Positions 17,079 through 32,093 of a stretch of 35,156 nucleotides of DNA are shown piece by piece. Numbering within the stretch: position 1 is the first letter of the stretch; every line of letters starts with the position of its first letter. The notes beneath the pieces were generated by a model. It was not told the origin of the DNA and made no database searches. It saw only the letters and a list, made by a program, of their open reading frames with translations. The position numbers and the translations under genes are program-made. This DNA comes from Lentisphaerota bacterium (GTDB lineage: Bacteria; Verrucomicrobiota; Lentisphaeria; Oligosphaerales; PUNB01): NCBI GenBank assembly GCA_003552565.1, contig PUNB01000122.1, positions 1 to 35,156 of the forward strand. Direction: 5' to 3'.

Positions 17079-19184
17079 TCATTTTCCATAGGAACCTTTT
17101 GTTTCGCCAGCCAAACAGTCTTGGAAAAATTCGTAGGTTCGTCGCTGACTGCGGGTATGGCGCCAGCGGCTTGAACGGGAGGGAGGGGCAAATGTGCCGT
17201 CAGCACGCAGCCGGCGGCCTTTACAGCGGTCCTGCAGCTGCAGCTCGAACAAATGATCGATGATCCGGCATATACGTCGGTCGTAAACGGGGAATAGCGT
17301 TTCAATTCGCCGGTCGAGATTGCGCGGCATCCAGTCGGCACTGGCCATATAATACTCCAGCTTGCCGCCGTTGCCGAAACGAAACATGCGGGTATGCTCC
17401 AGGAAGCGGTCAACTATACTGACCACGCGGATATTGTCGATCAGCCCTCCCGGCCGCATACAGCAGGCGCCGCGAACCGCCATTTCTATTTTAACTCCGG
17501 CGCGCGCCGCTCGGAAAAGGGCGTTGATTATTTCCGGATCCACCAAGGTGTTGATTTTCACCCGAATCGAGCCGGGATTGCGAGCTGAGGATAAACGCGT
17601 CTCACGCTCGATCAGCTCCAGAAAGCGGGTGCGCAAGGTGTAAGGCGCCACCGCCAGCTGCTCCCAGGCGGGCGGATCGGAATAACCGGTCATCACATTG
17701 AATAAAGCCGCCGCGTCGGAACATAAAACCGAGTCATTTGTAAATATGGAGGCATCGGTATAAAGCCTGGCGGTACTGTCATTGTAATTGCCGGTGGAAA
17801 GATGCAGGTAACGGCGGATATGACTACCTTCTCGACGGACAATCATCAGCATTTTGCTATGTACCTTAAGTCCCGCCATGCCGTAGATGACATGCACACC
17901 GGCTTCTTCCAGATGGCGTGCCCAGCCGATATTGCGTTCTTCATCGAAACGAGCCTTCAGCTCCAGAATGACTGTTACCTGTTTTCCGGATTCGGCGGCT
18001 CGGCGCAAAGCCCGGACCACGGGTGAATCGCCGCTGACACGGTAAAGAGTCTGCTTGATCGCCAGCACGTGCTGATCGGCGGCTGCCTCTTCCAGCAATT
18101 GAATTACCGGATCGAATTGTTCATAAGGTGGAAACAAAGGCAGGTGGCGGTGCCTGCTGACGGCGGTGAAAATCGATTCGTTTTCTTTGATAAACGGGGA
18201 TTCCAGGGGCGGCCAGTCCGGCTCCCGCAGAGATGGGGAGAAATCATGCTCCAGCATTTGGAAAAAGTCATTCAGCGCCATCGGCCCTGGCAATCGATAC
18301 ACAAACAGTCTATCCGTCTGTAACTGCTTGATCAGCCAGTCACCAAGCCGTCGATCACTGCCGCGAGGCAGCTCCAGCCTGATCGGCTGCCGCAGACGCC
18401 GCCGGCGCAGTTCCTGGCGTACATGCTGCAGAAGATCCACCACTCCGTCAGTATCCGCGCTGAAATCCATGTCCCGAGTCAAGCGAAAAGGAAAAGCGGC
18501 TTCGATCGGACGATTAACGAATAATTGATCCAGGAATTCAATGATTGTGTCTTCGAGAGTCACGAATAACCGCGTTTCTCGATCCGTTTCGATTTCCACC
18601 GGCAGCCAGCGCGGCAGAGCGCCGGGGACTTCCACCAACCCGCGATGCCAGCCTTTGCCGTCCGGCTTCCGCAGTAAAACCGCGATTTCCAGCATACAAT
18701 TGGCGATTATCGGGAAAGGATGGCTGGGATCCACCGCCACTGGTGTCAGCATCGGCATTATCTCCCGCTGAAAATAATCTTTCAGCGCCGTGTATTCGGA
18801 ACGCCGCAACTGTGAAGGGGCAGTCAGTCGAAAAACTCCCTGCTTCTCCAGTGCAGGCAGAATTTCATTTTGCAGGCAGCGGTATTGGCGGCGAAGCATT
18901 GATTCCACCTTCTTGTTAATCGCCGTCAGCTGCTCCTCCACAGTCATCCCGGAAGGATCTGTGGAAGCGACTCCGGAAAGCAGCTGTTGACGCAGGCCTG
19001 CCACCCGGACCATGAAAAATTCGTCCAGATTGGAACTGGCAATGGCGACGAATTTCAGCCGCTCCAGCAAAGGCGTCTGACCGTCCAAAGCTTCTTCCAG
19101 CACCCGATTGTTGAAATCAAGCCAAGAAAGCTCCCGATTGATCAGGCCTTCATTTACTTCCGCGATTGAATTTTTACTATTCAA
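17079..19184 (-). CDS. ppk: Polyphosphate kinase 1
   Basis: NRELSWLDFNNRVLEEA, SSNLDEFFMVRVAGL, LHLSTGNYNDSTARLYTDASIFT. Confidence 0.96.
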   Translation of the reverse strand: MNSKNSIAEVNEGLINRELSWLDFNNRVLEEALDGQTPLLERLKFVAIASSNLDEFFMVRVAGLRQQLLSGVASTDPSGMTVEEQLTAINKKVESMLRRQYRCLQNEILPALEKQGVFRLTAPSQLRRSEYTALKDYFQREIMPMLTPVAVDPSHPFPIIANCMLEIAVLLRKPDGKGWHRGLVEVPGALPRWLPVEIETDRETRLFVTLEDTIIEFLDQLFVNRPIEAAFPFRLTRDMDFSADTDGVVDLLQHVRQELRRRRLRQPIRLELPRGSDRRLGDWLIKQLQTDRLFVYRLPGPMALNDFFQMLEHDFSPSLREPDWPPLESPFIKENESIFTAVSRHRHLPLFPPYEQFDPVIQLLEEAAADQHVLAIKQTLYRVSGDSPVVRALRRAAESGKQVTVILELKARFDEERNIGWARHLEEAGVHVIYGMAGLKVHSKMLMIVRREGSHIRRYLHLSTGNYNDSTARLYTDASIFTNDSVLCSDAAALFNVMTGYSDPPAWEQLAVAPYTLRTRFLELIERETRLSSARNPGSIRVKINTLVDPEIINALFRAARAGVKIEMAVRGACCMRPGGLIDNIRVVSIVDRFLEHTRMFRFGNGGKLEYYMASADWMPRNLDRRIETLFPVYDRRICRIIDHLFELQLQDRCKGRRLRADGTFAPPSRSSRWRHTRSQRRTYEFFQDCLAGETKGSYGK

Positions 19185-19209
19185 AACAAATTTCCTAACG
19201 CGTTCCTAT

Positions 19210-19247
19210 GTGAGACTTCGTGGTTTCAGGTTTCAGTGTTCAGGTCT
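19210..19247 (-). repeat. Repeat family C, copy 2
   Basis: gtgagacttcgtggtttcaggtttcagtgttcaggtct, directly after the ppx stop codon. Confidence 0.65.
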
Positions 19248-19249
19248 AA

Positions 19250-20818
19250 CTAAGCGCCGGTCACTCTGATCTCAATCGAGCGAGCAAAAACAATTTCGAA
19301 CATGTCGCCTTTATTGCGAACCCCGGCGACCGCCAGACTGAGATCATAATCACTGACAGCGGTCAAACACACTTTTTCATTATCGTAAGTCGCCCGAAGG
19401 TCTTTCACCTTGTTCTGATGCGCCCGGTCGAAAGCATCCGCCACCCTCAGGATTGCCGCCAGTTTGCTTACCAGCACCCGGTTCTCGGTCGACAAGGATA
19501 CATATTCTGAATGGGCGTTGCGCGGCAATGCCCGGCGATGATAGCGGGCAATCAGAGAAATCAGGTTGAGTTCATCCGAGGACAAACCCGGCAGCTCACT
19601 GTGGCGCAATAGATAATAGGAATGCTTGTGATGCTCTCTATTGCTTACAAACATGCCTATATCATGCAGCAGCCCCGCCACTTCCAGCAGTACCCGACAG
19701 CGCTCAGGTAAGCCGTGCAGAACGGACAGCTGATCGTACAGACGCAAAGCCAGGGAAGTAACTTTATGAGCATGTTGGGAATCGTAGTCATAGCGCGTTC
19801 CCAGATGCTCGGCGGAAGCGATAATCTGGCTGACGAAGCTGTCAGGCTCTCCGCCCAATTCACGGAACAGGTCTTTCGTCAAGGCGTCCCTGGTATCGAC
19901 CATGGGAATTATCATCCGCTCGGCCTCGCTGGCGTTGAACAATTGTTCCAGCATGTGACAGCATGGCAGGATGCCGGCGGCGTCCGTGTCGCTCAGCCCA
20001 TATTGTCGAATGAGTTCAAATTCATCCATTTGATTCAAGCGGATGAAGTGTTTGTCAAAAGTTTTTTTTGACATTGTCGCCACCTTCGCCGGGGTTTGAC
20101 TGCGAACGATAGCGACCAGCGCCCGTACCGGTGCACCGACAACAATCAGGTTTTCCGGATGCATTCTCCTGGACATTCTGTTTATTCCCATGAATGTTGC
20201 GGCCAGTAGAGGATCCACAGCTTCCCGCATACGCAGAGGAGTCAGCTGCTGCTCCATTTCTTCAGCCAGCCGCAGCGTTCCCACCCGGATCGTTTCCGCG
20301 TTGACCAGCCGGCCGTCTTCCACCAGAGAAACCTGGCAGGAACCGGTGCCGATGGTGTAGATAATCGAATCACCAGTATTAAAACCGAATTTTCCGGCCA
20401 TGATTTCCCGTACGGCCAGAAACAGCACCCTGGCTTCATTTGCTCCTTCCAGAATATCTAGACGGATGTCGCTGGCCTGCTTGATGCGATCAAGAAATAT
20501 ATCGCGATTGAAAGCCTCCCGCACCGCGCTGGTGGCTATCGCTTTATACCGCTTAATCCCGTATTCCCGCATCAGCCGGGCGAAATCGCGAAAAATCTCT
20601 TCACCCAGTACCATGTTTCGCGAGCCAATATAGCTGGAACGAAAAACATCGTGCCCCAGAGGAATATTCTGAGTCGCCTCCTCCAGTACTTCCATTTCAT
20701 CGTTGACCGAAGACTGCACGATCCTCAGCCTGGCTGAATGAGCTCCAAGGTCGATGACCGCCAGTGGACTCGTATCAGGAGCTTCAGCGGCGAATAATTT
20801 TGTTTTACGAGTCGGCAT
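19250..20818 (-). CDS. Ppx/GppA phosphatase family protein with C-terminal HD-like domain
   Basis: LAVIDLGAHSARLRIV, ATSAVREAFN, LEGANEARVLFLAVRE, LLHDIGMFVS; 3' of the ROK gene and 5' of ppk. Confidence 0.88.
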   Translation of the reverse strand: MPTRKTKLFAAEAPDTSPLAVIDLGAHSARLRIVQSSVNDEMEVLEEATQNIPLGHDVFRSSYIGSRNMVLGEEIFRDFARLMREYGIKRYKAIATSAVREAFNRDIFLDRIKQASDIRLDILEGANEARVLFLAVREIMAGKFGFNTGDSIIYTIGTGSCQVSLVEDGRLVNAETIRVGTLRLAEEMEQQLTPLRMREAVDPLLAATFMGINRMSRRMHPENLIVVGAPVRALVAIVRSQTPAKVATMSKKTFDKHFIRLNQMDEFELIRQYGLSDTDAAGILPCCHMLEQLFNASEAERMIIPMVDTRDALTKDLFRELGGEPDSFVSQIIASAEHLGTRYDYDSQHAHKVTSLALRLYDQLSVLHGLPERCRVLLEVAGLLHDIGMFVSNREHHKHSYYLLRHSELPGLSSDELNLISLIARYHRRALPRNAHSEYVSLSTENRVLVSKLAAILRVADAFDRAHQNKVKDLRATYDNEKVCLTAVSDYDLSLAVAGVRNKGDMFEIVFARSIEIRVTGA

Positions 20819-21854: not shown

Positions 21855-22029
21855 CTAGACCCTATGCGAAAAGGATCTTGTGGAGCTCTCAAGCTCGAAA
21901 GTGACTGCGCGTTCCACGGCCAATTGGATTAAGGCGAAAGATTGTGACGAAAGATTAGGGGGAGAACGGGTGCGCTCCTTAATCTTTCGCCTTAATCTCG
22001 TTTCCGACCCCTTTCCGGACGGAGTCTAG
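21855..22029 (-). mobile_element. MITE-like element, interior type ii (copy 3, reverse)
   Basis: CTAGACCCTATGCGAAAAGG...CCCCTTTCCGGACGGAGTCTAG; interior is the reverse complement of copies at 12245 and 14319. Confidence 0.85.
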
Positions 22030-22874
22030 GTAACCGTTTTCAGTCTTTCCCCGGCGGATTGTATAACTCTCTGCATGGAAGCGGGTGAGGTTATGAAAAG
22101 ATGCACCTTGTCGCCGGTGAACTCTTCGAGTGTTTGTTGAAAGCCGGTTTGCAAAGGGTTTAAAACGGCCACCTGCCACTGACTGCTCATTTGGGCAAAA
22201 GGGATTATCCCCAATCGCCGGGCATGTTCAAAAGGCACTAAAGCAAAAGCTTCCTCGGGTATTTCAAAACGCTCGAGTTCAACGAAAGGTGTGGCGGTAT
22301 GGGCGGACAAGAAGCCTATAATAGCGTTTATGTCCACTTTATCCATGCTTTCCAATTCATGCATCAGAGACAATGTTGATTCGGAAGCAGTGTTCATTCT
22401 GCTTTCGGTGATGCCGGAGATTGCGGCTTCATACTGCTCCGAGGAAATCATTTCGTTTTGCAGAAGCAACCAGGCAAAATCGATTTCAGCATTTAAATTG
22501 AATTCCAGCTGCGCCTCCGAAGGACTGGGCTCGACTTCCTCGTTTTCCGTCCCCAGCAAAGCGTCAGCGGGATTCTCGGATACTTCCAATAGTCGTTCGG
22601 CTTCTGGATCATCAGGATTCAGGGTCAGCAGATGCTGAGCCAGTGAGTAGAGCTGAGACCAATTCTGCTCTTCCTCGAAAACTTCAGCCAGCCGCATGTA
22701 TATTTCCCAAGCCTGAGAGGCGTTGCCGATTTTTTCATAAGAAGCCGCCAGCCCGGAAAGCGCGGAAGGATCATGCGGATGTTTTTCCAGGATGGACTCA
22801 CAGGCTCTTACTGCTTCCCAGGCGGCCGCGTCATCTCTTGCAAATTCTTCCATGTTTTGGGGGGTGGCAAACAT
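22026..22874 (-). CDS. TPR-containing protein with GspE/MshE N-terminal (GSPII_E_N-like) domain, no ATPase
   Basis: N-terminal TPR-like repeats (DPSALSGLAASYEKIGNASQAWEIYMRLAEV); C-terminal AWLLLQNEMISSEQYEAAI...FLSAHTATPFVELERFEIPEEAFALVPFEHARRLGIIPFA...QVAVLNPL; no Walker motifs. Confidence 0.72.
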   Translation of the reverse strand: MFATPQNMEEFARDDAAAWEAVRACESILEKHPHDPSALSGLAASYEKIGNASQAWEIYMRLAEVFEEEQNWSQLYSLAQHLLTLNPDDPEAERLLEVSENPADALLGTENEEVEPSPSEAQLEFNLNAEIDFAWLLLQNEMISSEQYEAAISGITESRMNTASESTLSLMHELESMDKVDINAIIGFLSAHTATPFVELERFEIPEEAFALVPFEHARRLGIIPFAQMSSQWQVAVLNPLQTGFQQTLEEFTGDKVHLFITSPASMQRVIQSAGERLKTVT

Positions 22875-23027: not shown

Positions 23028-23043
23028 TGGCACGAAAATTGCT
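23028..23043 (+). promoter_or_regulatory. Sigma54 (-24/-12) promoter upstream of pilB
   Basis: TGGCACGAAAATTGCT matches TGGCACRNNNNTTGCW at every constrained position. Confidence 0.8.
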
Positions 23044-23104: not shown

Positions 23105-23356
23105 GAGTTAGACCCTATGCGAAAAGGTATCGCACCCATGCTCCCGCTTGTTTCGGATGAGATTTCGGTTTTCCTCGGAAAACCGGAAGATCGCCGAAAC
23201 AAGCGGGAGCCTTATCGGGTAGGGGTGCGGCGGGGCGTCTCCGGTTTTTATGCCGCAAGTCATTAGCGCTGAGGCTGGTAACTGACGGAACAAAAACCGG
23301 ATCAGACCTGCCGGCGCTCCCAACAAGGGCGTGAGACCTTTTCGCATAAGCTCGAG
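23105..23356 (+). mobile_element. MITE-like element, interior type i (second copy, inverted interior plus extra palindromic segment)
   Basis: GAGTTAGACCCTATGCGAAAAGG...CCTTTTCGCATAAGCTCGAG; gctcccgcttgtttcgg / ccgaaacaagcgggagc arms; second IR tccggttttt / aaaaaccgga. Confidence 0.8.
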
Positions 23357-23378: not shown

Positions 23379-25127
23379 ATGGAAATCAACAGCTCGAAGA
23401 ACAAAAAACATGGTGTTGGAGCCGGCATGTCATCAGGTCTTCTGGAAAGACTTGTCGCCAGCGGCGCTCTTGATGAGATACACCAAGAGGAAATAGAATC
23501 ATCCTTTGAGGGCGGTCAGTCCGAGCTGGAAAAGCTCCTCAAAGAAGATTACGCCGTTGATTCCGCCGAATTTTGTCTGGCGATCGCTTCCTATGCCAGA
23601 ACACCGGTCCTTTCCCTGGCGAATCACACGCCTGATTCTTCTCTTTGCGAAGAATTTCCAATTGAAATCCTGCAAAGAGAACGGATGCTTCCGGTGGGCC
23701 GCACGAGCCGCACCTTGACGCTGGCTCTGGCTGATCCCATGAACGTATTAGCCGTTGAGGAAATGGAGGACTTGACCGGCCTCAAGGTGTTGCCGGCGGC
23801 GGCTCTGGAGTCGGAAATCAATGAGGTGCTGAAGGCGTTAACCGAAAAAGGTAAAGGCGACCTTGACAACGCCTTCCAGGAAGCAGGCGGAGAAAAGGAT
23901 ATTCAGATTGCCTCGGGAGAAGAAGACGATTCGGATATCGACAGCATGCTGGAAAGCGCCTCTCACGCGCCGGTTATCCGGATCGTCAATATGATCCTTA
24001 TGGAGGCTTTGAGCAAAGATGCCAGCGACATTCACATTGAAGCATTTGAAAAACAGATGCGTCTGCGTTACCGCATCGACGGAGTTCTTTTTGAGGGGCC
24101 TGAGCCGCCGAAGCATTTGCAGTCCGCTATCATTTCCAGGCTTAAGGTTATGTCGGAACTGGACATAGCCGAACGCCGGATACCCCAGGACGGCCGCTTT
24201 AAAATCAAGGCTCAGGGAAAGGAAATTGACCTGCGAGTGTCGATACTGCCGACAGTGCATGGGGAGAAAACCTGTATGCGGCTGCTGGACAAAAGCAATC
24301 TGGCTGCCTCTCTGGATGTGCTCGGGCTGGATCCTGATTCACTGCAAAAACTGCGCGGCGCCATTCACCAGCCTTACGGATTAATTCTCGTCACCGGCCC
24401 GACGGGCAGCGGTAAAACCACCACTCTTTATTCCGCTCTTCAGGAGCTGAACAGTCCTGAAGTAAACATTACCACGGTGGAAAACCCGGTGGAGTATCAG
24501 CTCATGGGCATCAATCAGGTGGAAATCCGGGAAATAGTGGGAATGACCTTCGCCGCCGCATTGCGATCCATACTGCGGCAGGACCCGGATATTGTATTGG
24601 TCGGGGAGACTCGCGACAGTGAAACGGCCGACATCGCGGTCAAGGCGGCACTGACCGGCCATCTGGTTATGACCACCCTGCACACTAATGATGCCCCCGG
24701 AGCCGTGGCCAGGCTGGCTTACATGGGCATTGAGCCTTTTTTGATTGCATCCTCCCTGCTGCTTTCACAGGCTCAGAGGCTGGTGCGTAAAATTTGCACC
24801 AACTGTAAAGAGCCCTTTGAATTTTCACCGGAATACGCTGAAGCCAATCATATCCCCCCGGACCAGTTCGACAACGCTCAGGTTTACAAGGGGCGCGGCT
24901 GCAATCGTTGCAACCATACCGGTTACAAGGGCAGAGCCAGCATTATGGAGATTCTGCAAGTGACCCGGGAAATGCGCGAGTTGATTTTGCGCACAACCAA
25001 CGCCGACGACATCAGAAACATGGCCCTCCAGCAGGGATTTCGCAATCTGCGCCAAAACGGTTTTTACAGGGTGCGCGAGGGAATCACCACCATTGAAGAA
25101 GTACTGCGGGTGACCGCCACCGAATAG
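23379..25127 (+). CDS. pilB: Type IV pilus / type II secretion assembly ATPase (PilB/GspE)
   Basis: Walker A GPTGSGKTTTLY, RQDPDIVLVGETRDSETADIAVKAALTGHLVMTTLHTND, zinc motif CTNC...CNRCNHTGYKGR. Confidence 0.95.
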   Translation: MEINSSKNKKHGVGAGMSSGLLERLVASGALDEIHQEEIESSFEGGQSELEKLLKEDYAVDSAEFCLAIASYARTPVLSLANHTPDSSLCEEFPIEILQRERMLPVGRTSRTLTLALADPMNVLAVEEMEDLTGLKVLPAAALESEINEVLKALTEKGKGDLDNAFQEAGGEKDIQIASGEEDDSDIDSMLESASHAPVIRIVNMILMEALSKDASDIHIEAFEKQMRLRYRIDGVLFEGPEPPKHLQSAIISRLKVMSELDIAERRIPQDGRFKIKAQGKEIDLRVSILPTVHGEKTCMRLLDKSNLAASLDVLGLDPDSLQKLRGAIHQPYGLILVTGPTGSGKTTTLYSALQELNSPEVNITTVENPVEYQLMGINQVEIREIVGMTFAAALRSILRQDPDIVLVGETRDSETADIAVKAALTGHLVMTTLHTNDAPGAVARLAYMGIEPFLIASSLLLSQAQRLVRKICTNCKEPFEFSPEYAEANHIPPDQFDNAQVYKGRGCNRCNHTGYKGRASIMEILQVTREMRELILRTTNADDIRNMALQQGFRNLRQNGFYRVREGITTIEEVLRVTATE

Positions 25128-25137
25128 AGGAAAAATA

Positions 25138-26271
25138 ATGGCTTTCAGTAACAAACAGACATCAAACAGCTCCAGGGGAAATCGCAATGCCCCAGGGAAG
25201 GTGTCATCCGGAGGTGTCAAAGTGCGCGGTGCGAAAAAAATCCGCAAACGCGAACTTTGTCCTTTCACTCAGAAGTTGACCGCCATGCTCAGTGCCGGGC
25301 TGCCTCTGATCCAATGCCTTACGGCTCTTTCGGAGCAGGTTGAGGATCCCAACTTTCGTCCTGTTGTTGAGGACATAAAGTCGCGCGTGGAGGGAGGGGC
25401 TTCGTTTGCTGAAGCTCTGGAAGTTTACCAGAACCTCTTTGGGGATTTATACGTTAATATGATCAGAGCCGGAGAAATGAGCGGCAGCCTGGGGGAAGTC
25501 ACCGCCCGCTTGTCCTCTTACCTGGAAGCCAGCGCGGCAATGATCCGCAAAATTAAATCCGCACTCACTTATCCTGTGGTGGTGGTGGTGCTGGCAACCA
25601 TACTCGCTATCGGCATGCTGATTTTTATCGTGCCGGTTTTTGAAGGTATTTTCGCCGACTTTGGAGCGGATCTGCCGGCGCCGACTCAGATACTGGTGGA
25701 TGTCAGTGACACAGTTCGCAACCAAACGCCGTTGGTAGTGGCGATTATTATTGCTTTAACTCTGATACTGCGGCATGTTAAAAAGACCCCTCAGGGGGCG
25801 TTGGCCGTCGACCGCATGATATTACGAGCGCCGGTGGCCGGCAAGCTGGTTGAGAAAATTGCTCTGGCCCGCATGTCCAGGACTTTCGCTTCGCTGCTCA
25901 ACAGCGGGGTGCCGATTCTAAAAACCGTCCAGGTTGTCGCTCAAGCCACCGGCAACCGCGTTATCGGCCAGGCTTTGGCTTCATGCGGAGGAGCTATTGA
26001 AAACGGCGCCAATGTTGGTGAATCATTGAAAAAAACCGGCAGGTTTCCGCCGCTGGTCATACATATGGTGTCGGCGGGAGAAAAAACCGGCAATATCGAC
26101 GGCATGCTGGAAAAGGTCGCGGACTTTTACGAGGACGAGGTGAATAATACCATGGAATCTTTGTCCAGCATGATCGAACCTTTGCTGATGGCTTTTCTGG
26201 GGGTGGTTATTGGAGGTATCGTTATCTGCATGTTTCTGCCGATATTTCAGATGCACGAAGTTGTTTCGTGA
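25138..26271 (+). CDS. pilC: Type II secretion/T4P inner-membrane platform protein (PilC/GspF)
   Basis: FTQKLTAMLSAGLPLIQCL, MIRAGEMSGSLGEVTARL, SAGEKTGNIDGMLEKVADFYEDEV. Confidence 0.94.
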   Translation: MAFSNKQTSNSSRGNRNAPGKVSSGGVKVRGAKKIRKRELCPFTQKLTAMLSAGLPLIQCLTALSEQVEDPNFRPVVEDIKSRVEGGASFAEALEVYQNLFGDLYVNMIRAGEMSGSLGEVTARLSSYLEASAAMIRKIKSALTYPVVVVVLATILAIGMLIFIVPVFEGIFADFGADLPAPTQILVDVSDTVRNQTPLVVAIIIALTLILRHVKKTPQGALAVDRMILRAPVAGKLVEKIALARMSRTFASLLNSGVPILKTVQVVAQATGNRVIGQALASCGGAIENGANVGESLKKTGRFPPLVIHMVSAGEKTGNIDGMLEKVADFYEDEVNNTMESLSSMIEPLLMAFLGVVIGGIVICMFLPIFQMHEVVS

Positions 26272-26318
26272 AGAATCAGGTGGCTTCTCTGAAACCTGTC
26301 CCCAGAAATCATTGAGCG

Positions 26319-26368
26319 AGTCTCTCACTCGGGGTATACGGCGCATCGCGCCGGCGGTCGTGCTTATG
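26319..26368 (+). repeat. Repeat family E, copy 3
   Basis: gtctctcactcggggtatacggcgcatcgcgccggcggtcgtgcttatg matches the E part of 6920-6971 (reverse complement). Confidence 0.65.
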
Positions 26369-26513
26369 GGAAACATCGGGTTCTTCGTTTGTTGTTTTCG
26401 GCGGTTAACGAGAGGTTTTTCCAATATTTTTGCGCTGGAAATTTTGGTTTTATCGATACCCCCAGTTAAGAGTTTTGGTTGGTTTGTAAAAATGGCGACT
26501 TTGTCATTTTTGT

Positions 26514-26548
26514 TGCTTAAGCGGGTCAGTTAAGCGGGTCGCTTAAGT
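26514..26548. repeat. Short direct repeat
   Basis: gcttaagcgggtcagttaagcgggtcgcttaagtg: two copies of ttaagcgggtc and a third ttaag. Confidence 0.6.
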
Positions 26549-26566
26549 GTGTTTGAGCAAGGGTGG

Positions 26567-26731
26567 GGGGGTAAGAAAGCGATTAAGTGTTTAGAAGAGA
26601 AGCGTGGAGAACATGACACTTAATCCCGCACTTCATCGCACACGTAAGCCCACGCTTAAACTATCTGCTTCGTCGGTATTGGGCATGAAGAAGATCAACA
26701 ATATACCCACAAATACCGCTGACGAGGCAAA
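26567..26731 (+). repeat. Intergenic repeat family D, copy 2
   Basis: Same element as 2676-2839 in opposite orientation; internal IRs attaagtgt/acacttaat, aagcgtgg/cccacgctt and gcttcgtc(.)ggtatt/aatacc(.)gacgaggc. Confidence 0.8.
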
Positions 26732-26744
26732 AAAAAGAGTTTTG

Positions 26745-26790
26745 TGAAACCCTAGAAACCTGACACCTGAAACCTGAAACCAAGCTGCTA
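26745..26790 (+). repeat. Repeat family C, copy 3
   Basis: gaaaccctagaaacctgacacctgaaacctgaaacc. Confidence 0.55.
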
Positions 26791-26831
26791 CCCACCAAAT
26801 CTAAGAAAAAACTATTAGCAACCCACTCGTC

Positions 26832-28184
26832 TTGAGAAAGAGCCAAAAATCACGAGCGACTATTATGAATTCGGCCAAAAAATTGATAGATTGGATAAAA
26901 AAGGATCAAGTGGGGAGTCGCCACCCCCCACTCGCCTTGGTTATGCTGGCGCGACTGGCGCTTCTGGCGCTTCTGCTGGTGGTTTTGCTGGGGTTCTCTG
27001 ACTACACTCTTGATTTCCTGGAAATTTCACTTTTCATGGGGTTGACCTTTGCCATTTCTTTATTATACACTTTGTGGATGAGACAGGACGGGGATTATTC
27101 CCGTCAGGCCATGTGCCAATTCGCGGTTGACGCTTTTATTATCACCGGCCTGGTTCATTTTACCGGCGGCGCGGCCAGTGCCCTCTCTCTGCTCTACCCG
27201 CTGTTGATTCTTTCCGCCGGCATTATTGTCTCCGGCCGGGTGGCGGTGAAAACGGCGCTTCTTTCCTCCTTCCTATATATAATTCTGATTGCCCTCGAAT
27301 ATAATGACTTTCTGCCCTATCGCGGAGAGGAACCATCGCCTTACGAAAACCTGGCGAGTCTAAGTCAGATGACCATGCTGCAAGTGTTGCTTTTCGTGTT
27401 TTTCGCGGCGGTCAGCAGTTATGTCAGCGATCGCTATCTTTATCAGTCTCTGCAATTGAGACGACTGCGCGAGATGACCAAAAGCACTCTCGAGAGTGTT
27501 TCCGTGCCGCTGCTGGCGATAAAAAATCCCGAGGGCCTGATAAAATTAGCCAATCCGGCGGCCTGTCGATTGTTAAAGCGGAGCGAATCGGAACTTGCCG
27601 ACAGTCAGTTTTCCGCGTTGTTCGCGGAGCGGGCGCCGACACCGCGGGAAATAATTTCAGAGCAGGATTGCGTATGGTGTCTGAAGAAAGCGGACGGCAC
27701 CTCTTTTCCCGTGAGCCTGGAAATATCAAAGGACAGCCTTTCAGGAGCTGTGCTCAGCGCCATACATCAGGATTCCGAAGACGCGGAAGTCAACCTGGTG
27801 GCTTTTCAAGACATGAGTCGGCTTATGCAAGAAGAAGAGGGAATTAGAACCACCGAAAAGACCAAAACCGCGGTCGGCATGATTACTGAAATGGCGCACG
27901 TGGTGCGCAACCCCTTGACCGCTATTCGGGGAGCCGGCGAACTGATCAACGCGGCGGTAGAAGAAGCTCTTTCCCGGCAGCACCAGATTACGGAAGAGGA
28001 ATTTCATACCCTTAAATCCATGTGTGAAATCATCTTTGACCAGACGCGCGAACTGAACAGTAAAGTCGAAGATTTCATGTCTTACGCCGACGGTGATCAA
28101 GAAAAACTACTCGATTTGGTGGCTCAAGCCAATCTATGGGGCGAAAGAGTAACCAAAAAACGTCAGACCGCACCAAAAAAATAA
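26832..28184 (+). CDS. PilS-like membrane sensor with PAS and HisKA-like region, lacking an HATPase_c domain
   Basis: Multiple TM helices, PAS-like VPLLAIKNPEGLIKLANPAACRLLKRSE, H-box MAHVVRNPLTAIRGAGELI; ORF ends about 90 aa after the H-box with no N/G1/G2 boxes. Confidence 0.82.
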   Translation: MRKSQKSRATIMNSAKKLIDWIKKDQVGSRHPPLALVMLARLALLALLLVVLLGFSDYTLDFLEISLFMGLTFAISLLYTLWMRQDGDYSRQAMCQFAVDAFIITGLVHFTGGAASALSLLYPLLILSAGIIVSGRVAVKTALLSSFLYIILIALEYNDFLPYRGEEPSPYENLASLSQMTMLQVLLFVFFAAVSSYVSDRYLYQSLQLRRLREMTKSTLESVSVPLLAIKNPEGLIKLANPAACRLLKRSESELADSQFSALFAERAPTPREIISEQDCVWCLKKADGTSFPVSLEISKDSLSGAVLSAIHQDSEDAEVNLVAFQDMSRLMQEEEGIRTTEKTKTAVGMITEMAHVVRNPLTAIRGAGELINAAVEEALSRQHQITEEEFHTLKSMCEIIFDQTRELNSKVEDFMSYADGDQEKLLDLVAQANLWGERVTKKRQTAPKK

Positions 28185-28229: not shown

Positions 28230-29660
28230 ATGAGAGTGAAATCAAGCTTGACAAATTCTCAGAAAATTCTTATTGTTGATGATGAACCCGGGATCGTGAA
28301 AGTCCTTCAGGCCGGCCTGAAGAGGGACGGCTATTATCCGCTGGCGGCATCTTCAGGAAAAGAAGCAGTCGAAACGCTTTCCACTACCGCTGTCGACTTA
28401 ATTCTCCTGGACTTGCGTTTGGGCAAGGGCATCAACGGTTTCCAGACCATGCAGAAAATTCGCGAAACGGGCAGCCGGACCCCGATAATCATGATGACCG
28501 CTTACGGCAATATTGAAACCGCGGTCAGAGCGCTTAAAGCCGGAGCCTGTGATTTTATCTGTAAACCCTTTTCCCTGGATGATTTGAGGCATTTGATAAG
28601 GGAGGCTTTGCAGAAACGCTCCCTTGACTCAGCCGCCTTCTCGGAACCGTCTGATGACAGCGAGGAGAGCACTGGCGTGCAGTGTCATTTTGGCTATTTG
28701 ATTGGTGAAAGCCCCGAGATGCGGCGAGTTTACCGGCTGATTGAGCGCAGTGCTCCCACTGATGCCACTGTGCTTATACAAGGCGAAAGCGGCACCGGCA
28801 AAGAGTTGGTGGCGCGGGCGTTACACAAGCACAGCCGGCGCGCCGACCGGCCCTGGGTGCCGCTGAACTGCGCGGCGGTGCCGGTAAGTCTGCTGGAATC
28901 GGAAATGTTCGGACACACCTCCGGCGCTTTCACCGGGGCGCGGTTCGAAAGACAGGGGCTTTTTATAAGCGCCTCCGGCGGAACTTTGTTTCTAGATGAA
29001 ATCGGGGTCATGAACCTGGGACTGCAAGGGAAACTGCTGCGGGCGCTGCAAGAAGGAAAAGTGCGCCGCATAGGCGAAAATCAGGATACTGATGTCGATG
29101 TCAGAGTGATCGCGGCCACCAACGAAAAACTGGAAGATAAAATCCAGGACGGCTCTTTCAGGACAGACTTGTACTATCGCGTCAATGTCATTCCGATAGA
29201 ACTGCCGCCACTGCGTGAAAGGGGTGGAGACATTGTCATCTTGGCGGAGGAGTTCAAAAATCAGCAAAGCAGGAAGTTGGGGAAAGAGTTTCGGCTTGCC
29301 CCCTGCGCAATAAATGCTATAATTAACTATTCTTGGCCGGGCAACGTTCGGGAATTACAGAACGCTGTGGCTTGTGCCGCCACATTATGTGACCAGTATA
29401 CGATTGAAGTGAGCGACCTGCCGCCACACATAGCTGAGTGCGGGGAAGAAAATCCCATGACCGTCCAGGAAACAATTTCCGCGGAGGATCGCGCTCAGGC
29501 GGATGGAGAGCACCAAGCTCCTTTGGATCAATATCTTAAGCAAAAAGAGCGGGAGTATATTCGAAAAATTCTCCAGAAAACCGGCGGCAACCGATTACAA
29601 GCGGCTGAAATCCTCGGCATCAGCCGCACAACATTATACCGGAAATACGAAAACTGCTGA
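28230..29660 (+). CDS. Sigma54-dependent NtrC/PilR-family response regulator
   Basis: REC domain ([20 protein letters not shown]), Walker [15 protein letters not shown] loop, C-terminal Fis-type HTH ([19 protein letters not shown]). Confidence 0.95.
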
Positions 29661-29672
29661 TAAGAAAAAAAA

Positions 29673-30770
29673 ATGTTTAAACAACTGATAAGAAACTTTA
29701 GATGGCATCGAGACGTGGACAAAATGGGCCCCCGCAGATTTCTGATTGCGGAGTTGGGACGGGATAACTGTAAAATCGTCCTTTTAGAGCGGTCAGGTAA
29801 AAAAATTTCTTGGAATATAGCTGAAAATTTAAAGCTGGAAGGAAAAAATGACATCACCGGCGGTGAGCGAATGAGCGAAGCGCTGCGGCAGCTGAAACAC
29901 GATGCTCAGTATATTTCAGTTGTTTTTGGAGGCGGCGGTTTTCTTGTGCGCCTGCTTAATCTGCCCGGCACTCCGCCTGCCGAGGAGCGGAAACTGATTT
30001 CTCAAGTCAGGCAGACATTGGGAATAGATGATTCATTTGCTTTGCAGACCCATATCCAAAGTTCAATGGCTGCCGCCCAGGAAAAAGACTTGAAAACAGC
30101 CAGCGCCAAGACTAATCAACAAGGGTATTCGGTGGTTGTTGCCGCCGGTAAAAATGAATTGATTGAAGATATACAGGGGGTGGTGCGAGAAGCGGGATTG
30201 GTCCCTGTTTCCATGCTGCCTTCAGGAATCGCCGGCGCCAATCTGGCCGCTGATGAAATGCGGGATGGTGCCGAAAATTCCGCCGCCGGCTTCTTCCTCA
30301 TCGAATCTCATTCCTCTATCCTCTTACTCTTTCATCATACTGAATTGGTTCTGACTCGTCAGTTCAAAACCGGCTACCGCGCATTTGTGGATGCAGTCAT
30401 GTCCAATTTGGGACTTGATGAAGAAACCGCCACTGATATTCTTAACAGCGGTTCTTTTGATCTCTCTGATAATATTGCCTCCGTCGCCAATAACTGGCTT
30501 CACCAGATAGGCATCAGTCTGGATTTTCTCGAACGCCGTTTCGGTTACCGCGTGGACTGCCTTTATTTTCTTAGCACGGAGGGAGGACAGAAGGCGATTG
30601 AAACAATGCTTTGCAAGACAATTAATGACACCGTGGCTCCGTGGAATCAATTCAAGGCGCTGAAGGCGCTGGACATGGAAGGAGAAAAACAGAATATTCT
30701 CTCAACTTATGCTTTGCCCCTCGGTGAAGGAATGAGAATATATAAAAACACAGGTAATCATGACGTATAA
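29673..30770 (+). CDS. pilM: PilM-like actin-fold protein
   Basis: Position between the regulator and pilN/O; RRFLIAELGRDNCKIVLLERSGK, LNLPGTPPAEERKLISQVRQ, VVREAGLVPVSMLPSGIAGANL. Confidence 0.72.
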   Translation: MFKQLIRNFRWHRDVDKMGPRRFLIAELGRDNCKIVLLERSGKKISWNIAENLKLEGKNDITGGERMSEALRQLKHDAQYISVVFGGGGFLVRLLNLPGTPPAEERKLISQVRQTLGIDDSFALQTHIQSSMAAAQEKDLKTASAKTNQQGYSVVVAAGKNELIEDIQGVVREAGLVPVSMLPSGIAGANLAADEMRDGAENSAAGFFLIESHSSILLLFHHTELVLTRQFKTGYRAFVDAVMSNLGLDEETATDILNSGSFDLSDNIASVANNWLHQIGISLDFLERRFGYRVDCLYFLSTEGGQKAIETMLCKTINDTVAPWNQFKALKALDMEGEKQNILSTYALPLGEGMRIYKNTGNHDV

Positions 30771-31434
30771 TATCAATTTCTGGAGCGTCCCTGACTGGAA
30801 CCGCGAGAGCAGCATCAACCCCAATTTTTTAATGGCGGTGATCGTTGCTTTGTTTATTCTGGTTTCGTTTTCCTGGTACACCGTGGTTGAAGGCAGAAAA
30901 AGGCATTTCGAAAGCGAAAAGCAAACCTTGACTCAGGAAGTCAGCGGCCTGGCGCCGCAAGCGGATAGATTGGCTGAACTTAAAGAGAAAACAGCCTTGT
31001 GGGAAGAGGCCTTATCCTTGCTTCGTCGAAAAGGGGAACAACGGATTTTCTGGAGCCGGCAGCTGGCCGGACTGCAGCAGCTTGTTCCTGATCATATTGT
31101 TCTGACCAGCCTGTCCATTCGTGATCAGACAAGACGGGTGGAAGTGCCCGCCGCCGAATCAATGACCAGAAGCCATACTGGCGAGACCCAGGAAATTGTT
31201 GAATTTCGCACTGTCTACACACTGCATCTGGAAGCCGTGGCGGAAGGTGAAAACGCGGAAAAAAAAATCACCGATTTCGCCCGAACAATTGGCAACAGCA
31301 GAATCATTGGAGAGCTGCTGACGTCCTATGACATCCAGAATATCAGTCAGTCCGAAGAAAGAGAGGAAGATGGGAAGACCATCACCCCCTTTTATCTGAC
31401 TTTTGAGTATCAGGAATTTCCGGAGTTTATGTAG
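30760..31434 (+). CDS. pilN: PilN-like protein
   Basis: Short cytoplasmic N-terminus, one TM, coiled-coil, LVPDHIVLTSLSIRD; start overlaps the pilM end. Confidence 0.7.
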   Translation: MTYNINFWSVPDWNRESSINPNFLMAVIVALFILVSFSWYTVVEGRKRHFESEKQTLTQEVSGLAPQADRLAELKEKTALWEEALSLLRRKGEQRIFWSRQLAGLQQLVPDHIVLTSLSIRDQTRRVEVPAAESMTRSHTGETQEIVEFRTVYTLHLEAVAEGENAEKKITDFARTIGNSRIIGELLTSYDIQNISQSEEREEDGKTITPFYLTFEYQEFPEFM

Positions 31435-31436
31435 TT

Positions 31437-32093
31437 ATGAAGGGAAAATTAGATAATTTCGACTTGCAGGCTATCATGGCCTCTGAACAGATTCGTAAAT
31501 GCGGCATGGGCCTGATTGCAGGTATCATGGTTTTGCTGGCAGTCTGGTTTCTGGCTGTCCGCCCTGCGCAAGTCAGTATACAAGAAATGCAGGATGAAAT
31601 TAAAGATCTGGAAAGACGCTCGAACAATAAGCAGACAGTTATTGACCAAGCCGACATAATTGAAAAAAAATATGAGCAAACGGGTGAAAAACTCAAAACG
31701 ATAATTGAGCAGGACATGGCTCCTGAAAGAGCCGCCTTGGGATGGGCCAGCAGGCGATTGCGAAGTGCGGCGGCCGCTACCGGATTGGAGGTGCGTGACT
31801 ATACCGGCAGCACTGTCTCGCCGCCCGGCAGAGGCGGAGATCAGATTCCGCCGCTGCTGGAAAACTTCTCCACCCGCTTTGAATTGCGCGGCGGTTATCA
31901 TCAGATCGGCCGTTTTTTTGCTGTTCTGGAGAAAGAACTGCCCTATGCTTTAATGAGGAATTTGAGTATCTCCCCGCAAAGAAGACGAGGACGGGATTCC
32001 CAGCTTCTGCAGGCTAATGTAACCTATAGATTTCCACGTTTTACTGAAGAGGGCTTTCCCCCGGAAAAAAGGCCATCTTCAGAAAATGAATAA
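31437..32093 (+). CDS. pilO: PilO-like protein
   Basis: One TM, coiled-coil, FELRGGYHQIGRFFAVLEKELPYALMRNLSISP. Confidence 0.7.
   Translation: MKGKLDNFDLQAIMASEQIRKCGMGLIAGIMVLLAVWFLAVRPAQVSIQEMQDEIKDLERRSNNKQTVIDQADIIEKKYEQTGEKLKTIIEQDMAPERAALGWASRRLRSAAAATGLEVRDYTGSTVSPPGRGGDQIPPLLENFSTRFELRGGYHQIGRFFAVLEKELPYALMRNLSISPQRRRGRDSQLLQANVTYRFPRFTEEGFPPEKRPSSENE

Follow-up and report, generated by a model that had tools for sequence, protein, structure and literature searches.

The window analysed here, a stretch of 35,156 nucleotides of contig PUNB01000122.1 from a Lentisphaerota bacterium, encodes a PilS sensor that has no CA domain, the ATP-using part of a histidine kinase. That this CA-less PilS is conserved throughout its lineage is well supported and close to certain. 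Lacking its ATP-using part, the sensor is unable to work as an ordinary histidine kinase; by descent it is a PilS, but anatomically it is not a histidine kinase. Judged from sequence, there is a slightly better than even chance that it serves as a phosphatase-only, membrane-regulated brake on phosphorylated PilR (PilR~P).

The sensor gene occupies 26865–28184 and encodes 439 aa (all features lie on the plus strand unless stated otherwise). It begins with an ATG and its stop is at 28184; the listed start, a TTG at 26832, is an alternative, but the ATG at 26865 is likelier. A first-pass annotation had described a PilS-type layout of transmembrane helices, PAS domain and HisKA-like H-box, and this is borne out by Pfam and by an AlphaFold2 model (mean pLDDT 79, built on 26 family members). 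Six transmembrane helices (26925–27497), seen in the model, match 6TM_PilS (PF25323) with 42.1 bits, where the cut-off is 27. The last continues as a signalling helix, and TM1 has a conserved Arg30, present in all but one of the 35 rows with a residue at that position. The probable PAS domain (27510–27812) is sub-threshold in Pfam (PAS_9, 21.7 bits), and its predicted fold resembles PAS/LOV structures. The DHp/HisKA two-helix domain (residues 318–410, 27816–28094) scores 26.5 bits, marginally below the cut-off of 26.9, and is modelled as helices 318–370 and 377–410. Its H-box is EMAHVVRNPLTAIRG (A-H-V-V-R-N-P-L), with the core H-V-V-R-N at 27897–27911 and the codon of the phosphoacceptor His345 at 27897–27899. 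The acid at the following position (H+1) has been lost to Val346, a replacement that had been noticed in the first pass and is here judged significant, while Asn349 at H+4 is kept. Where the CA domain would be there is only a short helix in the model (residues 412–435, 28098–28169), and the alpha/beta CA domain is absent from it. The protein ends 94 residues past His345, close to the earlier estimate of about 90, and no HATPase_c domain (N, G1 and G2 boxes) is found in it by Pfam. Foldseek with the model returned fragments of PAS domains and kinase cores, which bear only on the fold as support, and a PDB sequence search gave weak HisKA matches only.

A profile search for HATPase_c in all six frames of the whole genome identified 18 places, of which none is on the sensor's contig. 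This agrees with the earlier statement that no downstream frame encodes the domain, and rules out a CA domain that was frameshifted or split off into a different frame. A CA domain from a small neighbouring gene is also ruled out, as the operon has none. The HATPase proteins of the genome comprise gyrB/topoisomerase, Hsp90-like and other ATPases and anti-sigma-like proteins, besides kinases that each carry a HisKA. L083 (248 aa), the shortest of these kinases, shows a weak HisKA match itself and adjoins a single receiver of its own. Among the 18 places there is no obvious CA partner for the sensor, in a genome that is 86% complete and is a fragmented MAG of 275 contigs, so that one may be absent from the assembly. 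For PilR, too, no partner kinase was identified in the genome, the only match other than the query being a GAF/PAS kinase (E 1e-3).

The truncation is common to the relatives of the sensor. The family comparison comprises 33 CA-less sequences including that of the window, and the CA domain is absent in all 32 whose 3' end can be seen (the remaining one, L064, is cut short by the edge of its contig); these come from Kiritimatiellota/Lentisphaerae-type genomes of several families. A search of 60 related genomes gave similarly short homologues, the nearest relative being 56% identical and others 36–37% over nearly the full length. A scan of GTDB representative genomes was keyed on transmembrane peptides, hence unselective for truncation, and returned 29 loci: the Lentisphaerae, Kiritimatiellota and related records with a visible 3' end all stop 80–106 residues past the histidine, while those from Methylomirabilota (L067) and Bdellovibrionota (L068 and L069) continue into a CA domain. 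When 388 genomes of the phylum were surveyed with a transmembrane profile, the 22 strong matches were all short frames, one of them in a one-contig genome, and the weak matches with ATPase motifs were other kinases. An assembly artefact, or a fresh or decaying pseudogene, might be suspected in a window that derives from so fragmented a genome, but this is refuted by the equally truncated relatives, and we regard it as extremely improbable. Independent assemblies, including the isolate-type record L060 and the one-contig genome L143, share the end point, and family members are 25–56% identical to the protein of the window with frames open throughout. A survey of orthologues had been proposed in the first-pass annotation, for which full-length orthologues in close relatives would have been a refutation; the close relatives proved to be truncated as well. 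Searches of the open-access literature for CA-less or HATPase-less sensors, and for PilS in Kiritimatiellota, turned up no account of this case.

The gene order pilB-pilC-sensor-PilR is kept in most family loci, and the full-length PilS of the outgroups (Methylomirabilota, Bdellovibrionota) is likewise found between pilC and pilR. As the truncation is lineage-wide and the locus order is common to the full-length outgroups, the simplest account of the sequences is that an orthologous PilS lost its CA domain once, in place, in the ancestor of the lineage, and that the short form was then kept. On the tree, one change separates the CA-less proteins from the three full-length ones, although two outgroup branches are long and the deep rooting can be trusted no further than this small outgroup. 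Several Kiritimatiellales have a sensor whose tail runs, in a different frame, into the beginning of pilR, and the truncated end is therefore built into the operon.

The sensor adjoins pilB, pilC and a sigma54-type PilR, as the PilS family does. Upstream are genes for a pilB-type assembly ATPase (MshEN + T2SSE, 23379–25127) and a pilC-type platform protein (T2SSF, 25138–26271), both identified by Pfam. Downstream are PilR, an NtrC-family response regulator with receiver, AAA+ domain with GAFTGA and Fis-type HTH (28230–29660), and then a pilM-like gene (29673–30770; weak Pfam score, conserved position) and pilN-like (30760–31434) and pilO-like (31437–32093) genes, recognised by Pfam search and position. 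The first reading of the regulator, as retaining its Asp, Walker A and GAFTGA, holds, and Thr and Lys can be added: the receiver residues Asp/Asp/Asp/Thr/Lys (acidic pocket and phosphorylated Asp), Walker A and GAFTGA are intact in the pilus-linked loci, with GTFTGA as a variant in the PilR of L063. With these elements intact, phosphorylation of PilR is therefore still under selection. A sigma54 -24/-12 promoter-like site of perfect consensus, TGGCACGAAAATTGCT, is present upstream of pilB (23028–23043; 0.02 expected by chance), and several relatives have similar sites 40–114 bases ahead of the pilB frame, not all of which beat chance when taken singly. Since RpoN (sigma54) is encoded in all ten genomes tested, these sites indicate that the operon is probably sigma54-driven, and PilR may itself be its activator. 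Between the promoter-like site and pilB there is a dispersed repeat (23105–23355) that is strongly structured, its fold z-score being -10.4. It has 32 matches across the genome assembly and looks like a MITE/REP-type insertion. A small TPR + MshEN protein adjoins the pil operon on the minus strand (22029–22874), MshEN being a domain known for c-di-GMP binding. Some 590 bases without an annotated gene (26272–26864) separate pilC from the sensor, while in relatives the two genes are adjacent.

An indication of function comes from the H-box residues that are kept and lost. During attack on ATP, the H+1 acid serves as general base. Glu or Asp at H+1 and Thr or Asn at H+4 are present in each of 30 HisKA kinases examined from eight genomes of the same order. 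The CA-less family differs at the first of these positions, with an acid at H+1 in only 18 of 33 sequences, whereas Asn or Thr at H+4 is found in 31 (Ser in L063 and L064). The phosphoacceptor His is also present in 31; the two exceptions, L063 and L141, have Gln and represent losses in two lineages. Arg at H+3 and Pro at H+5 (31/33 each) and Leu at H+6 (32/33) are also kept. As the sequences are related, such counts are not independent, and changes counted on the tree give a fairer measure: the acid at H+1 changed about five times, and the identity of the residue seven times, against one to four changes at the other positions from H-1 to H+7. Alanine scanning of CrdS, HK853 and other HisKA proteins has shown that the H+1 acid is required exclusively for kinase activity and the H+4 Asn/Thr exclusively for phosphatase activity, while the His is not required for the latter (PMC3510030). 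The same paper also states that an isolated DHp domain, from NtrB or EnvZ, is enough for phosphatase activity, though a weaker one. Drift at H+1, retention at H+4 and a His that was twice dispensable make up the pattern predicted by a phosphatase-only function.

Under this function, the sensor would still use its six helices and PAS domain to read a membrane signal, and the four-helix bundle of its DHp domain would still dock PilR. It would no longer make phosphohistidine from ATP, and would hydrolyse PilR~P through the H+4 Asn/Thr. PilR, driving sigma54 promoters and probably that of its own operon, would receive its phosphate either from acetyl phosphate (acetate kinase is encoded in all ten genomes tested) or from a different kinase, with the CA-less PilS as a regulated brake. 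The first-pass annotation had also suggested that PilR phosphate comes from elsewhere, and the need for such a source is supported. The phosphatase that would switch PilR off may be under the control of a pilin-type or another membrane signal. In Pseudomonas, PilS regulates pilA via its phosphatase activity in response to inner-membrane pilin, and its Arg24 is important for pilin contact (PMC6528607). The conserved TM1 Arg of the family may correspond to this residue. The window yielded no prepilin signature, and the proposed signal is therefore not tied to a local pilin. In evolutionary terms, it is about an even question whether the lineage turned a bifunctional PilS into a sensor-regulated phosphatase free of an ATP site, with another donor for PilR, and whether CA-less paralogues later left the pilus genes.

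Several points weigh against a brake. Retention of Asn/Thr at H+4 could serve packing or docking, the H+1 acid is still present in 18 of the 33 sequences, H+4 is Ser in L063 and L064, and L055 and L057 have no PilR directly downstream. In most kinases a nucleotide-bound CA domain strengthens phosphatase activity; by analogy, the ATP requirement of the DrBphP phosphatase and the loss of phosphatase activity in CA-truncated ChrS also argue against it. These, together with the help that truncated ChrS gave to a second kinase, make an allosteric helper or scaffold the main rival, in which the CA-less PilS would bind PilR and/or heterodimerise with a full-length kinase and non-catalytically promote or tune phosphotransfer from that kinase. 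CA-truncated ChrS boosts output by aiding HrrS phosphorylation of ChrA, its His being irrelevant and heterodimers having been demonstrated (PMC9491836), and the family has lost the His twice but conserves the docking residues of the DHp. We nevertheless consider a helper unlikely, as it alone leaves the retention of H+4 Asn/Thr amid H+1 drift unexplained, the operon has no partner kinase, and none is obvious among the HATPase proteins of the genome.

Precedents also exist for a split kinase or relay, CheA3 being phosphorylated by CheA4, and Spo0B and ChpT taking phosphate from a regulator. Here the DHp His would be phosphorylated in trans by another CA domain, or from a regulator, and pass the phosphate to PilR. 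The His is indeed present in 31 of 33 sequences, and split kinases exist, CheA3 having phosphatase activity as well (PMC3591291). This is less likely because the H+1 acid has been lost repeatedly, including in the sensor itself, and because the His is Gln in L063 and L141; there is also no adjacent CA-only gene, and L083 has a weak HisKA match and a receiver neighbour of its own. We regard it as doubtful. A passive decoy that sequesters PilR at the membrane without chemistry would account for a conserved docking face in the absence of a catalytic domain, but both the His and the H+4 Asn/Thr would be dispensable for it, yet they are among the most conserved residues, and it appears quite improbable. 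Among the roles suggested in the first pass, inhibition of the regulator thus fits best, while a phosphotransfer intermediate and a passive decoy fit the H-box pattern less well.

The proposed phosphatase-only brake can be compared with several known systems. PilS of the PilS-PilR pair (Pseudomonas aeruginosa and others) has the same 6TM domain, HisKA and place in the pil operon beside a sigma54 PilR, and the full-length PilS of other phyla is orthologous to the sensor by synteny; unlike these, the sensor has no CA domain and no H+1 acid, and is incapable of autokinase activity. DrBphP of Deinococcus radiodurans is another histidine-kinase homologue that lacks an acid at H+1, and it has light-driven phosphatase but no kinase activity (PMC8292422). 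It differs in retaining its CA domain, requiring ATP for phosphatase activity, and having Glu at H+4 and phytochrome input, and it is a single protein, whereas the sensor family is a lineage-wide truncation. The isolated DHp domains of NtrB and EnvZ are CA-free like the sensor and dephosphorylate their cognate regulators (PMC3510030), but they are laboratory constructs, weaker than the whole protein, while the sensor is a natural truncation that has kept its sensory part. ChrS of Corynebacterium glutamicum, a pseudokinase by frameshift, has no working CA domain and still affects its regulator; in contrast to the sensor it is laboratory-evolved and of HisKA_3 type, has lost phosphatase activity and acts via the kinase HrrS (PMC9491836). 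CheA3 of Rhodobacter sphaeroides is a phosphoacceptor without a kinase domain of its own and has phosphatase activity (PMC3591291), but CheA3/CheA4 are of CheA type with a known CA partner, and none was found for the sensor. In Spo0B and ChpT the DHp is followed by a degenerate ATPase-like domain and the His is invariant, whereas in the sensor the DHp is followed only by a 24-residue helix, and the family has Gln for His in L063 and L141.

As a rule a single histidine kinase carries both kinase and phosphatase activity, which oppose each other and are difficult to examine separately. In this family the kinase half seems to have been removed in evolution, while the sensor, docking surface and phosphatase residue were kept for so long that identity to the window's protein is down to 25–56%, and the kinase-only residue at H+1 drifted; if confirmed, this is a natural separation-of-function series. 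It would test the H+1/H+4 rule, whether a lone DHp domain can be a physiological phosphatase, and whether pilin sensing by PilS works mainly through switching PilR off. The CA-less PilS also poses the question of the phosphate donor of PilR in these bacteria.

A paralogous CA-less branch (L040, L044, L049, L050 and L065) is found outside the pilus operon, and all its members are without the H+1 acid; in L044, the regulator next to the copy lacks GAFTGA and its Walker A is degraded. In L055 and L057, argH-like genes directly follow the CA-less PilS, in the place of pilR. Elsewhere in the window, a polyphosphate kinase adjoins a Ppx/GppA phosphatase on the minus strand (17082–20818).
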